Source: Tepidanaerobacteraceae bacterium (GTDB lineage: Bacteria > Bacillota > Thermosediminibacteria > Thermosediminibacterales > Tepidanaerobacteraceae). From it: DNA of 64,000 bases. Position numbers and translations under genes: made by a program. Positions within the stretch are counted from its first letter, which is position 1. Each line of letters begins with the position of its first letter. Below the pieces are notes generated by a model that ran no database searches, had not been told where the DNA came from, and worked only from the letters and a program-made list of their open reading frames with translations. Positions 6,672-41,781 of the stretch are shown here, piece after piece. The stretch spans positions 248,001 to 312,000 of the forward strand of contig JANLFP010000003.1 in assembly GCA_024655905.1 (NCBI GenBank), given 5' to 3'.

Positions 6672-6895
6672 ACAAAAAAAACTCGCCCCTGAAGGGACGA
6701 GGTATTCTCGCGGTACCACCCTGGTTGAGCATAGCTCCACCTCATTTTGATAACGGTATAACATCCGGCCTGGCCTACTCGATAACCTTTCAACCCACAG
6801 CTCGGGAGCGGCCCGAAGTCTTCCACCTGCCGGCTTTCACCCTTCCCGGCTCTCTTTGAGGCTTTGCGACTCCTTCTTCTCCGTCATGGCTTTTG
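6672..6895 (-). promoter_or_regulatory. T-box leader (complete) upstream of the aminotransferase
   Basis: On the minus strand the leader runs from about 6895. It has AGAGAG and GGTG segments in Stem I, an exact T-box motif (AGGGTGGTACCGCG, 6720-6707), and a terminator (CTCGTCCCTTCAGGGGCGAG followed by a T-run near 6679-6672). T-box leaders bind an uncharged tRNA and then favour antitermination. The specifier codon cannot be assigned safely: GAC (Asp) and TTC (Phe) both sit in the candidate loop (GGAAGACTTCGGGCC, near 6815). Either would suit an aminotransferase. Confidence 0.88.
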
Positions 6896-6982
6896 ATAAT
6901 CTTTGATTTGCTATTGTGTTATTTAAAATATCATTTTATTTTTGAAATGTCAAGTATGAATTTTAATTTTAAACCTGTACTC

Positions 6983-22679: not shown

Positions 22680-22829
22680 TCAGCTTGCCCCTCCTGCGTC
22701 GATTACCTTCTTTTCCTGTTTCTGACCGCCGCCGCTTCCGCCGGAGCTCTTTTGCCCGCAGCCAACTATCAGCATGATTCCTATGAGAACAATCGCAATG
22801 GCGGCGAACAACTTTTTAAGCCTTCTCAT
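22680..22829 (-). CDS. Tiny lipoprotein (49 residues)
   Basis: A short gene with a strong site (GAGGAGG, 8 bases before the ATG). It encodes MRRLKKLF, then a hydrophobic stretch (IAIVLIGIMLIV) and a lipobox ending in Cys at residue 24. After the cysteine only 25 residues remain, rich in Ser, Gly, Lys and Gln (GQKSSGGSGGGQKQEKK). Such micro-lipoproteins have no assigned function. The position convergent with murI and the good signal peptide make this a real gene in my view, though it is below usual length cutoffs. Confidence 0.72.
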   Translation of the reverse strand: MRRLKKLFAAIAIVLIGIMLIVGCGQKSSGGSGGGQKQEKKVIDAGGAS

Positions 22830-22941
22830 TGAATATTTCCTCCTCTAAAATTTGGTTTTATCTATGCAACGAGGTCTTTTATTATATTTTTCTACATTTA
22901 TATGAAAAACCCTTTTATCTGAAAATTATGCGGCGTTGTCA

Positions 22942-22966
22942 TGTCACGGGGACGGTTCTTTTGACA
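22942..22966 (+). repeat. GGGACGGTTC-core inverted repeat, copy 1 of tandem pair
   Basis: 25 bases with arms TGTCA/TGACA and core CGGGGACGGTTCTTT. It is preceded by TGTCA and followed by TTGACA, giving doubled arms. An almost identical copy starts 45 bases downstream. Confidence 0.85.
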
Positions 22967-22986
22967 TCTCTTGACATGGTCGAGAA

Positions 22987-23011
22987 TGTCACGGGGACGG
23001 TTCTTTTGACA
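22987..23011 (+). repeat. GGGACGGTTC-core inverted repeat, copy 2 of tandem pair
   Basis: Identical over 25 bases to the copy at 22942. The two lie in the 308-base gap between the small lipoprotein and the asparaginase gene; apart from them I see only AT-rich sequence there. Confidence 0.85.
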
Positions 23012-23137
23012 CTTTTGACATGCGTCGAAAAAGAAGATTGAGGAAATCGCAGATTGTATAATGTGGAATAATGCTGCAGATTGTGGTAAAATCATCGTGG
23101 AGGTGGTTTAATCATTGAGGCAATAAACCGGATTTTA

Positions 23138-24214
23138 ATGAAAAAAAAGATCGCATTTCTGGCCACCGGCGGCACCATAGCTTCAACCCGGGGGCCTGAA
23201 GGCCTTCGACCAGCCTTCACCGAAAAAGAAATGATAGAGCTGGTGCCGGAACTTTCGCATATAGCCGATATTCAGGGAAAACTCATCATGAACATAGATA
23301 GCTCCAACATGCAGCCGGAAGACTGGAAGGTTATTGCCGCTGAGATTGTTGAGGCTCTAAAAAAATGTGACGGTGTAGTCCTTTCCCACGGCACCGACAC
23401 TTTGGCCTATACTTCTTCGGCTCTTACCTACATGCTCACGGACCTCAAAAAGCCCGTGGCCGTAACCGGCGCTCAAAAGTCCATAGGGGAAGAGCAAAGT
23501 GATGCAGCAAAAAACCTCGTGGATAGCTTCAAAGTGGCATCATCTGGAGTTCCGGGAGTTTTCGTGGTGTTCAACGGCAATATCATTATCGGCGACAGGG
23601 CCACCAAAATGAAGACCGCAAGTTTTGATGCATTCTCCAGCGTAAATGTGCCCATGGCGGGAAAAGTCCGTGAGTCAGGTGAGTCAGGGAGAGGTTGCGC
23701 TGACTCAAAAAAGTCAATCATAGAGTGGAATGATGAGATGCTCTGGCAGGAAACCAGAAGGATAAAGCAAGTCTGGGCCAAACTCAAAAATGAGTCGGGG
23801 AAATGTCGCATTGACTCAAGCATCGACCCACAATCCCACCCCATCAAAGGTCTGGAAGAGGAACCCGTATTACTCTATGATAACCTCGATCCCCGGGTTT
23901 TGCTGGTCAAGCTCTATCCCGGCATAGAGCCCGAAGTCCTGCTGCTGGCCAGGGAAAAAGGCTATCATTCTGTGCTCATAGAAAGTTTCGGTTCCGGCGG
24001 AGTGCCCTTCCGGGAGCCCCGAAATCTTCTGCCGGCCATAGAAGAGCTCATTTCATCCGGCATCACCGTGGCGGTTACTACGCAGGTGCCCTTCGAAGGA
24101 GTGAACCTCTCCCTCTACGAAGTGGGGGTCAAAGCCCTGGAAGCCGGTGCCATATCCATGGGGGATGCCACCAGAGAAGCTGCTCTGGTGAGGCTCATGA
24201 TGAAACTGATCTAG
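23138..24214 (+). CDS. ansA: L-asparaginase (type I, AnsA-like) with internal insertion
   Basis: Hydrolyses asparagine to aspartate and ammonia. The two threonine catalytic motifs are intact: TGGTIAST near residue 9, and SHGTDTLAYTSSALTYML near 88. The C-terminal domain (ESFGSGGVPFREP, TTQVPFEGVNL) is also complete. The 358 residues exceed the usual 325-335. The excess lies between residues about 180 and 235 (from VRESGESGRGCADS to SSIDPQSHPIKG), where the DNA holds two diverged copies of the inverted repeat. ATG 23138 lacks a good binding site. GGAGGTGG lies ahead of an in-frame ATT at 23114, an alternative rare start. It is monocistronic. Confidence 0.9.
   Translation: MKKKIAFLATGGTIASTRGPEGLRPAFTEKEMIELVPELSHIADIQGKLIMNIDSSNMQPEDWKVIAAEIVEALKKCDGVVLSHGTDTLAYTSSALTYMLTDLKKPVAVTGAQKSIGEEQSDAAKNLVDSFKVASSGVPGVFVVFNGNIIIGDRATKMKTASFDAFSSVNVPMAGKVRESGESGRGCADSKKSIIEWNDEMLWQETRRIKQVWAKLKNESGKCRIDSSIDPQSHPIKGLEEEPVLLYDNLDPRVLLVKLYPGIEPEVLLLAREKGYHSVLIESFGSGGVPFREPRNLLPAIEELISSGITVAVTTQVPFEGVNLSLYEVGVKALEAGAISMGDATREAALVRLMMKLI
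23680..23707 (+). repeat. Diverged inverted repeat inside ansA, copy A
   Basis: Arms TGAGTCA/TGACTCA are perfectly complementary and flank a 14-base core GGGAGAGGTTGCGC that resembles the GGGACGGTTC core. A second TGAGTCAGG lies just upstream, reproducing the doubled-arm pattern of the intergenic copies. It is translated in frame. Confidence 0.6.
23791..23818 (+). repeat. Diverged inverted repeat inside ansA, copy B
   Basis: Also 28 bases, with arms TGAGTC/GACTCA around GGGGAAATGTCGCAT. It lies 83 bases after copy A, within the same extra protein segment. Confidence 0.5.
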
Positions 24215-24313
24215 CATGGCGCTACATTCAGACCCATAATAGTGAAGTGCCTGTCAACAATGAGCGCAACATCTGCGGTAAAATTATTCATATCAAATTC
24301 GGCGAAAAATAAA

Positions 24314-24342: not shown

Positions 24343-24374
24343 TATAAAAACAAAAGAAAATCGAATATGGGCAA

Positions 24375-24483
24375 CCTTTAAACTGGTCCCGCGAGGCCGG
24401 TAAGGGAAGAAGCAGTCAGCTTTGGGCACGCAAGGTTTCATGCGACCGCAAGCCTTTCTCCGCCTCGGAGAAAGGCTTTTTTG
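24375..24483 (+). promoter_or_regulatory. PyrR-dependent attenuator of the pyr operon
   Basis: The binding-loop hairpin (24375-24406) contains GGTCCCGCGAGGCC, matching the PyrR consensus ARUCCNGNGAGGYU except at its paired ends. It is closed by CCTT/AAGG arms. A strong terminator (AAGCCTTTCTCC/GGAGAAAGGCTT plus T-run, 24450-24482) follows. In the known mechanism, UMP-loaded PyrR holds the hairpin and lets the terminator form. No pyrR gene is present in the window, so it lies elsewhere. Confidence 0.9.
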
Positions 24484-24566
24484 ATGCATAAGACAGCATC
24501 AGGCGTGCCGGGTTTGAAATAGACCAGAGCTGCCGGAAGCTTTGCAGCCAAGATGAATAATCCCCT

Positions 24567-32844: not shown

Positions 32845-32871
32845 TGAGTCAAGGAACCGTCCTCTGACTCA
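32845..32871 (-). repeat. GGGACGGTTC-type inverted repeat, pyrK-pyrD gap, copy 2
   Basis: 27 bases with perfect arms TGAGTCA/TGACTCA and plus-strand core AGGAACCGTCCTC. A third TGACTCA follows at the right. Arms differ from those at 22942 (TGTCA/TGACA) but remain complementary. Confidence 0.85.
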
Positions 32872-40139: not shown

Positions 40140-40265
40140 GAGCGGAAAAAGTTTTTTTGAGTGGAAAAATTTTTTTGGGCAAAAGTTTTAAGATAGTGGA
40201 ACAAAAGAAGGAAAATCAAAAAGTGTGTCGAATATTATATCTAAAATCGAATAATTAAAATCAAA

Positions 40266-40350
40266 CGATAAAGGCAAACCCACCGAAAGGCGGGGGCGCA
40301 AAGCTGCGGGCCTAAAGTCGATAAGACTATGGCAGCCGGGTTGCCGAATC
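40266..40350 (+). promoter_or_regulatory. Cyclic-di-GMP class I riboswitch, copy 1
   Basis: The GEMM-I aptamer: GGCAAACC, a GAAA tetraloop (CACCGAAAGGCGG), GGGGCGCAAAGC, then CGGGCCTAAAG, and the second-arm ATGGCAGCCGGGTTGCC. The tetraloop-receptor contact and the G of the ligand pocket are in place. It is followed 30 bases later by a terminator, so it probably controls transcript elongation. Confidence 0.93.
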
Positions 40351-40379
40351 TTTATGTTTTATGCTTATGAATTGGACAG

Positions 40380-40421
40380 GCCCCTCCGGCAGCATCGGCA
40401 GGGGCTTATTTAATTGCTTTT
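40380..40421 (+). terminator. Terminator between the two class I riboswitches
   Basis: Arms GCCCCT/AGGGGC with an inner CCG/CGG pair and a T-rich tail (TTATTTAATTGCTTTT). The loop-side CGGCAG can pair with TTGCCG at the end of the first aptamer, a possible antiterminator, so ligand binding may favour termination (inference). Confidence 0.7.
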
Positions 40422-40453
40422 AGAATTGTTTTTTGCGGTTGATGTCTTCCTTT

Positions 40454-40536
40454 CGATAAAGGCAAACCCGCCGAAAGGCGGGGGCGCAAAGCCACGGGTC
40501 TAAAGCAGGATGCAATGACGGCCGGGCTGCCGAAAA
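40454..40536 (+). promoter_or_regulatory. Cyclic-di-GMP class I riboswitch, copy 2
   Basis: The same GEMM-I aptamer signature as copy 1: GGCAAACC, CGCCGAAAGGCGG, GGGGCGCAAAGC, and ATGACGGCCGGGCTGCC. It ends only about 15 bases before the ATG at 40552. The GGGGG binding site directly follows the aptamer, so this copy could act on translation rather than termination. Confidence 0.93.
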
Positions 40537-40551
40537 AGGGGGTCTTAAAAA

Positions 40552-41391
40552 ATGAAAAAGAGCCCGAAAGGGATTTTCCCCGTGCTGCTCGCTTGTTTGA
40601 TTTTTCTCAACCAGAGCACAGCTTTTGCCGCCGGCAGCGAATACATAGAAAAAAACGGCGTTGCCCTTCTTAAGCCGCCATCGGAGGTTTGCGGCAAGGT
40701 GCGCATCGCCGGGAGCACCTCGAAGGCAAAGATAAAACTCATGGTAAATAAAGGGGACAGCCGTACATGGTACGATGTTTCCCTGAACAACGGTGAATTT
40801 GACACCGAGCTTTGGCTGGTGCAGGGAGAAGGGCGCTATACCGTGTCTGTAATGGTGCATGAATACGACAGGAAATACAGCTACGGTCCCACAGTAACCG
40901 TAAACAATACTGAAGAAGTGGACAGGTTCTCGGTGCCCACAAAGGAAGTGGAAAGCGATGCTCCAGAAATCGTCGCGCTGGCGGGAAAGCTCGCACAAGA
41001 CAAAAAGACCGACATGGAAAAAATGAGGGCAATCTATGACTGGATCGTGAAAAACATCGATTATGATTATGAAAAATACGCAAAGCACCGCAGCGGAGAT
41101 TATGACAATACTTACGGTGCATTGAACACCCTCAGGACAAAAAAGGGCGTGTGTTATGACTATGCGGCTCTGGCGGCGGCTTTGGGCAGAGCCGCCGGGG
41201 TCAGGGTAAAGCTGGTGAAAGGGGAAGGCAAAATGGGCACATTTGAAGGCCTTCATGCATGGAACGAATTCTACAGCTCCGAAGAACAAAGGTGGGTCTG
41301 CATGGATGCGACCTTCGGAGCTATAGGGCAGGAAGCGTACTTCGACAACAAAGACTTCGAGGATACCCACAAAAAGATTGATGAATATTGA
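40552..41391 (+). CDS. Exported transglutaminase-like protein
   Basis: A 279-residue protein with a Sec signal peptide (residues 1-28, ending TAFAAG). The N-terminal part (about 30-125) is a beta-sandwich-like segment. A transglutaminase/protease-like domain follows with the Cys-His-Asp triad: KKGVCYDYAALAAALGRAAG (Cys), GLHAWNEF (His), and RWVCMDATFG (Asp). Bacterial members cleave or cross-link wall peptides or surface proteins; which applies here is unknown. It is the gene directly controlled by the tandem class I c-di-GMP riboswitches. A small stretch after the stop leads to the sigma-A promoter of the next unit. Confidence 0.88.
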   Translation: MKKSPKGIFPVLLACLIFLNQSTAFAAGSEYIEKNGVALLKPPSEVCGKVRIAGSTSKAKIKLMVNKGDSRTWYDVSLNNGEFDTELWLVQGEGRYTVSVMVHEYDRKYSYGPTVTVNNTEEVDRFSVPTKEVESDAPEIVALAGKLAQDKKTDMEKMRAIYDWIVKNIDYDYEKYAKHRSGDYDNTYGALNTLRTKKGVCYDYAALAAALGRAAGVRVKLVKGEGKMGTFEGLHAWNEFYSSEEQRWVCMDATFGAIGQEAYFDNKDFEDTHKKIDEY

Positions 41392-41421
41392 AAAGTTTAA
41401 CAAAATTTGCGACAAAATACG

Positions 41422-41450
41422 TTGACAGCCAGCAAAACGTATGCTATAAT
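41422..41450 (+). promoter_or_regulatory. Consensus sigma-A promoter of the sipW operon
   Basis: Exact TTGACA, a 17-base spacer and exact TATAAT, an unusually strong promoter. Transcription would start about 15 bases before the first class II riboswitch, so control must occur after initiation. Confidence 0.92.
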
Positions 41451-41475
41451 CTTACTCACAAGAGAAATATTTACA

Positions 41476-41550
41476 TTTGGGTGACGATGCGGTATGTTCT
41501 TAAAGATGGGCACCTGGAACATACTGAGTCAGTGGTGCAACCGACCCAAT
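41476..41550 (+). promoter_or_regulatory. Cyclic-di-GMP class II riboswitch, copy 1
   Basis: It contains the class II signatures GGGCACCTGG and GTCAGTGGTGCAACCGACC. The GCACC/GGTGC pseudoknot pairs across the P2 stem (TATGTTC/GAACATA). P1 is TTGGGT (41477-41482) with ACCCAA (41544-41549). The right P1 strand is also the left arm of the terminator that follows, so ligand binding should prevent termination (an ON switch). The assignment is from memory of the Clostridium acetobutylicum aptamer. Confidence 0.9.
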
Positions 41551-41585
41551 CTATTTCCGAAGATAGATTGGGTTAAATTATTTTT
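41544..41585 (+). terminator. Riboswitch-controlled terminator, copy 1
   Basis: Perfect eleven-base arms ACCCAATCTAT/ATAGATTGGGT (41544-41554 and 41563-41573), then AAATTATTTTT. It shares bases with P1 of the riboswitch, so the two structures exclude one another. Confidence 0.88.
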
Positions 41586-41683
41586 CGAAGAAAAAATTTT
41601 ATGTTGCCGCCTGTTCCGAATTTTTTTTTCAAAAATAGCATAGTATTGAAAAGTGATGAATATGATATCGATATAATGGTTTT

Positions 41684-41758
41684 CGAGGGAGATAATGACG
41701 CTTGTTCCGTATTTGGGGCACCTGGGGGCAAGCCGAGTCAGTGGTGCAACCGACCCTA
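41684..41758 (+). promoter_or_regulatory. Cyclic-di-GMP class II riboswitch, copy 2
   Basis: The same signatures as copy 1: GGGGCACCTGG and GTCAGTGGTGCAACCGACC. Here P2 is GCTTG/CAAGC, different in sequence from copy 1 but again complementary, which supports the fold by covariation. It is followed by its own terminator. Confidence 0.9.
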
Positions 41759-41781
41759 TCTTTTCTAAGATGGGGTTTTTT
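41753..41781 (+). terminator. Riboswitch-controlled terminator, copy 2
   Basis: Arms ACCCTATCTT/AAGATGGGGT (one T-G pair) with loop TTCT and a T-run. The left arm overlaps the aptamer's right P1 strand. Confidence 0.86.

Follow-up and report, generated by a model that had tools for sequence, protein, structure and literature searches.

The two hairpins inside the ansA reading frame of this Tepidanaerobacteraceae genome are probably REP-type palindromes of a TGAGTCA-armed repeat family that were taken up in frame, one by an old capture and the other by later copying within the gene. They lie in a 64,000-nucleotide stretch of DNA (the window), whose genome we call G000, and in which ansA occupies positions 23138..24214 on the forward strand as an open reading frame of 358 codons plus stop. 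The encoded protein scores above the cut-off of the TIGR00519 profile (281.5 versus 260.5 bits) and matches the domains PF00710 and PF17763. Residues T13, H84, G85, T86, D87, T88 and K157, which we take to be the catalytic motif residues of AnsA, are invariant in 12 close and 47 wide-ranging homologues. Judged by its family profile and catalytic residues, the product is a type I L-asparaginase (AnsA), and the invariance of the motif confirms the original prediction that the catalytic motifs on both sides of the repeats are intact.

Both 28-nt inverted repeats can be read directly from the DNA and lie in the forward frame of ansA, 83 nt apart, as first described. Copy 1 (23680..23707, forward strand) has perfect 7-nt arms, TGAGTCA/TGACTCA, around a 14-nt core and encodes the peptide ESGRGCADS. 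Copy 2 (23791..23818, forward strand) encodes ESGKCRIDS in the same frame, and here the earlier description needs a correction, its arms being TGAGTCG/TGACTCA, with one synonymous mismatch to TGAGTCA on the left. A third arm, TGAGTCAGG (23671..23679, forward strand), adjoins copy 1 as a 9-bp tandem duplication of the first arm that adds three residues; it is present in the window only and missing from the related genome G005 and from the seven other DNA sequences aligned. RNA folding of the two 28-nt copies gave z-scores of -3.0 and -2.6.

The region had first been described as a segment of 50-odd residues absent from typical AnsA. Compared with 46 distant AnsA proteins, drawn from the best 80 loci listed (those 80 are 33-42% identical), this description is apt: the linker at residues 176-253 comprises 78 residues in the window and 27-42 in the distant proteins (28-30 in 38 of the 46), and is thus about 48 residues longer. 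Roughly half of this excess, however, is an order-wide extension, since the linker has 51-53 residues in eight other proteins of the same order, so that only about 25 residues of the window protein exceed the order's own form. The inter-repeat stretch of roughly 30 residues (IEW...RI..VW) is found in 12 of 12 aligned AnsA proteins of the order, and on this alignment these residues, including a helix at 199-219 (codons 23732..23794, forward strand, in a region that belongs to no insert), are ancestral to the order. A single repeat-derived insert of 50 residues is ruled out by the same alignment, the middle part being common to all.

On the upstream side of this middle part, net insertion 1 (23681..23719, forward strand; boundaries uncertain to within a few codons) contributes 13 in-frame codons in the window and 10 in G005 and is absent from the other 10 of the 12 aligned proteins; by eye, an incomplete AnsA from G007 appears to lack it too. 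With these empty sites in relatives, copy 1 is a clean in-frame insertion. The sequence AAAAGTC stands on both sides of copy 1 and was considered as a target-site duplication, but deleting one of the two together with the repeat (38 nt) restores neither the frame nor the relatives' sequence, and the alignment, read by eye, revealed no clean frame-keeping target-site duplication at insertion 1.

Copy 2 lies within a variable segment 2 (23789..23863, forward strand; about residues 218-242), which is long in G000, in G001 (a genome of the same genus as the window) and in G005, G009 and G007, and shorter in G003, G011 and six genomes of family f2. Alignment with close relatives, which yielded empty sites for copy 1, yielded none for copy 2 among the relatives aligned. 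The original prediction had named the occurrence of the segment in distant AnsA proteins without the repeat pattern as evidence against itself; this was found in part for segment 2, which in G009 and G007 is of similar length and holds no recognisable repeat. At the homologous place in G001, and with the same frame offset, positions L015:2127-2154 match copy 2 of G005 at 18 of 28 nt without gaps. This is the best match on both strands of the 4-kb locus L015; in a 20-kb stretch of G001 (L171), the homologous place is surpassed by one other place, with a score of 20, and equalled by others at 18, and a covariance model of the repeat scores the homologous place weakly (8.1 bits, E 5.4). Segment 2 of G009 gave no match to copy 2 like that of G001. 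Copy 2 was thus likely captured in frame as well, with a decayed homologous trace in G001, and because this trace sits at the homologous place and in the same frame, copy 2 probably predates the split between G000 and G001.

An AlphaFold model, computed from an input alignment of the window protein and 46 loci of the distant AnsA set, reached a mean pLDDT of 90.3 and a pTM of 0.89, and its best Foldseek matches are the archaeal type I asparaginases 5ot0 and 4q0m. All runs of at least three residues with pLDDT below 50 fall at 183-187, 222-226 and 229-234, and between these low-confidence runs stands the helix 199-219, in blocks at pLDDT 69-80. Model confidence drops mainly at the repeat-encoded loops, and the helix between them is a confident one. 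The repeat-encoded parts are predicted to form floppy loops, presumably at the surface, and to leave the enzyme core intact. Between window and G005, the core of AnsA evolves under purifying selection, with a dN/dS of 0.089 over 311 core codons, and the loops are relaxed, with 0.50 over 42 insert-region codons (a small sample with 11 differences). We would expect the functional effect of the loops to be near-neutral. The 28-mer is read in this frame as ESGxxxxDS without a stop and the loops lie between two domains, so the enzyme would tolerate them. The fast evolution of the insert regions, with a dN/dS of about 0.5, might also be taken to mean that ansA is decaying and that the inserts mark a pseudogene. 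We consider this extremely improbable in view of the open 358-codon frame, the invariant catalytic residues, the low dN/dS of the core (0.089) and a confident predicted fold close to solved type I asparaginases.

The arms of the hairpins recur throughout the genome. The canonical unit of the family, TGAGTCAGGGGACGGTTCCTTGACTCA, is 27 nt long and REP-like and has 39 strand matches with at most three mismatches in G000, one place being matched on both strands; at the same threshold there are 27 in G005, 11 in G009, 7 in G001 and none in G003, G006, G013 and G015. The arm pattern (TGAGTC, a variable-length gap and TGACTCA, 26-30 nt in all) has 31 forward and 30 reverse matches in G000, and its reversed control has none in each of four genomes, which shows that the pattern exceeds chance. 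By hand count, these matches represent 33 distinct places; among these are both ansA copies and C31:353659, a place whose core is unrelated. The four genomes with the canonical family have AnsA linkers of 69-78 residues (window 78, G005 75, G009 70, G001 69) and the family-free genomes G003, G013 and G015 linkers of 53; no AnsA match was obtained for the fourth family-free genome, G006.

Two canonical copies in the window, both on the reverse strand, are intergenic, with no spanning ORF of at least 90 aa (32845..32871, 45.5 bits, L064; 32797..32823, 41.4 bits, L071). Throughout G000, spanning ORFs of this minimum length occur at 4 of 41 repeat loci, some of which overlap, namely ansA and three short predicted ORFs of 93-143 aa, in which the repeat falls inside the first 15 codons; none occurs at 10 repeat loci from other genomes. 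Some of 40 further loci from G005, G009 and G000 have spanning predicted ORFs of at least 80 aa, most of which are short or have the repeat close to one of their ends. The single one confirmed as a gene encodes a DeoR-type regulator that in both G005 and G009 ends in repeat-encoded residues. The TGAGTCA family hence lies mostly outside genes, and ansA is the sole confirmed case here in which a repeat lies away from the ends of a conserved gene. In the DeoR-type regulators (L182:606-1439, forward strand, and L201:1829-2728, reverse strand) the peptide derived from the repeat is the C-terminal ESENRHLTH.

A sister repeat has TGTCA arms and shares the core GGGGACGGTTC with the canonical family. 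Its strand matches number 25 in G000, 9 in G005 and 15 in G009, and the search of five other genomes gave none. Two copies of it lie upstream of ansA in the window (22937..23020, forward strand). They occupy the site at which G005 (L169:8022-9281) and G009 (L170:8072-9331, coordinates as reoriented in both) carry a 420-aa open frame, presumably a dicarboxylate symporter, that the window lacks.

How closely the ansA hairpins belong to the TGAGTCA family depends on which part of the repeat is compared. A covariance model built from 53 other repeat copies gave 23.3 bits for copy 1 of the window with the extra arm and 19.6 without it, and 19.2 and 19.1 bits for copy 2, with rough E values of 0.0024 to 0.024. 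In an ungapped hand alignment, copy 1 agrees with the consensus at 14 of 14 arm positions and at 8 of 13 core positions (Fisher p 0.016). As plain decay is expected to strike arms and core equally, the pattern points either to favoured arms or to an origin from another repeat that has these arms. A REP origin of the hairpins is likely, judging from the arms, the presence of the family in the same genomes and an insertion that closely matches the repeat. The in-frame repeat capture of the original prediction is supported for copy 1 and is likely for copy 2, but not as one 50-residue insert, and with cores that differ from the usual repeat. An origin outside the family, by which a coding motif ESG...DS was duplicated in a flexible linker and the arms resemble the repeat by chance or were otherwise selected, would account for ansA cores that do not fit the REP core, for arms that coincide with ES and DS codons, and for the long segment 2 of G009 and G007 without a repeat. 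It appears distinctly unlikely, given that 14 arm bases agree with a family that has about 30 copies in this genome and that the long form is missing from all three REP-free genomes in which the linker was measured.

As to the relation between the copies, the two ansA copies of G005 differ at only 1 of 28 positions, and the ansA 28-mer has no other place within three mismatches in eight genomes, a pattern that favours intragenic copying; the likeness of the G005 copies could also reflect a variant family that has since been lost. Alternatively, both copies might be separate REP insertions, mobilised by a RAYT from elsewhere in the genome and later decayed. G000 has four Y1_Tnp matches, two of them with long frames (275 and 319 aa) that match the REP-associated tyrosine transposase NF047646, one over and one under the cut-off, and each of these two is flanked by inverted REPs with arms of their own and the shared GGGGACGGTTC core. 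G001 has one NF047646 match over the cut-off and G009 one at 79.9 versus a cut-off of 80, both flanked likewise; in G005, the search turned up nothing beyond one match of IS200 size and a short one that contains an internal stop. These RAYT genes, flanked by inverted REPs with the canonical family's core, and the presence/absence pattern of copy 1 would suit two independent insertions. We nevertheless regard this as unlikely, since the arms of the REP-type transposases in G000, G001 and G009 are TGTCA, TGCGACA or CAAGT-type and a RAYT with TGAGTCA arms was not found in these three genomes or G005, since the 28-mer shared by the ansA copies is absent elsewhere in eight genomes, and since the G005 copies are so nearly identical though both are unlike the family core. 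Across the loci L153, L154, L227 and L228, the arms of the transposase-flanking REPs differ (those of L154 and L228 are the same) and the GGGGACGGTTC core is constant.

REPs are described, in the surveyed passages of PMC12306157, as short palindromic stem-loops (14-40 nt in E. coli) with a common consensus motif and a usually extragenic location. The ansA copies fit in size and palindromic form (28 nt, 7-nt arms); their arms agree with the family but their cores differ (19-23 bits versus 41 and 46 for canonical copies). The arm family occupies 33 places in G000, and the ansA 28-mer itself is confined, in the eight genomes searched, to the ansA genes of G000 and G005. Both copies lie inside a gene, and we therefore call them REP-derived rather than REPs. 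REPs of the GTAG and CGTC superfamilies bear an unpaired tag of these letters at one end; inspection of the consensus found no GTAG, and a CGTC on the reverse strand in the middle of the unit, not at its end; a cognate RAYT, that is, one flanked by REPs with the same arms, was not found for TGAGTCA.

Under the preferred reading of one old capture followed by copying within the gene, the capture would have placed copy 2 in a variable part of the interdomain linker, after which its core would have drifted and its arms persisted. Copy 1 would then have arisen as a duplicate of the 28-mer, placed some 111 nt upstream without a change of frame and yielding a 10-residue insertion, and a 9-bp slippage duplication of the arm would have contributed three further residues to the protein of the window lineage. 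More speculatively, and we hold this to be rather doubtful, a REP-type palindrome deprived of its mobile core may persist as coding sequence and spread within ansA, with its arms kept as hairpin templates for local copying and slippage, such that the linker keeps gaining in-frame peptides.

The history of the ansA allele may differ from that of its genome. The ansA of the window is 93% identical to that of G005 and 72% to that of the same-genus G001, and the order is reversed for murI (79 for G005 versus 86 for G001) and pyrC (79 versus 85). This suggests that the ansA allele moved horizontally between the lineages of the window and G005, which would explain why insertion 1 is common to two genera. 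Along the DNA, window positions 23141-24217 (ansA) are 91% identical to G005, most flanks about 66-84%, and positions 22680-22933 88%. Between G000 and G009, two tracts of L207 (1384-1827 and 2212-3001), separated by a gap of ~380 nt, are 96-97% identical, compared with roughly 70-85% around ansA, which suggests recent gene exchange between these two genomes.

Several known systems resemble the ansA case. Rickettsia palindromic elements (RPE) are in-frame palindromes that add short peptides to conserved proteins, as the ansA copies do; RPE-1 is longer than the ansA repeat, RPE are not known to share its sequence, and the case at hand concerns two related copies in one gene. RPE in coding genes are mentioned in PMC3733652 (Di Nocera et al. 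2013), whose surveyed passages describe intragenic REPs of the GTAG/CGTC superfamilies as dispersed palindromes translated inside real ORFs, with double insertions in one gene for uvrA and uvrB, and whose authors suggest that linkers or loops tolerate them. The ansA hairpins share with the REPs of these passages that they are short family palindromes, translated, and two in one gene, but their CGTC-like bases are not at the hairpin end and their cores are unlike their own genome's family. Firmicutes do not appear among the phyla in the surveyed passages of PMC3733652, and the words Firmicutes and Clostridi are absent from its main text. The enterobacterial RU are likewise small mobile sequences read as part of annotated proteins (PMC2759123, surveyed passages), but their units measure 103-168 bp versus 28 nt in ansA. 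As in the REP/RAYT (TnpA-REP) system, REPs with the canonical family's core flank NF047646-matching genes as inverted pairs; unlike in that system, the TGAGTCA arms are without a RAYT found and the ansA cores have diverged.

A literature search with the core as letter strings returned no title on bacterial repeats among the matches listed, and searches on RAYT in Firmicutes/Clostridi and on asparaginase with palindromes returned no report of the ansA case among the matches listed. Since captures of repeats in genes are known in other bacteria, ansA is a new example rather than a new kind, an instance of translated REP-type repeats in a lineage unnamed in the surveyed passages. As a stepwise case, with a decayed trace, a second copy and slippage, it illustrates a possible route from short mobile palindromes to extra peptides in a conserved enzyme, and close relatives with empty sites make the steps testable.

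The window also contains several predicted RNA elements. A PyrR binding site (RF00515) is predicted between ansA and pyrB (24371-24485), a T-box leader lies on the reverse strand at 6690-6896, and on the forward strand at 40264-41764 two c-di-GMP-I-GGC aptamers are followed by two c-di-GMP-II aptamers within 1.2 kb.
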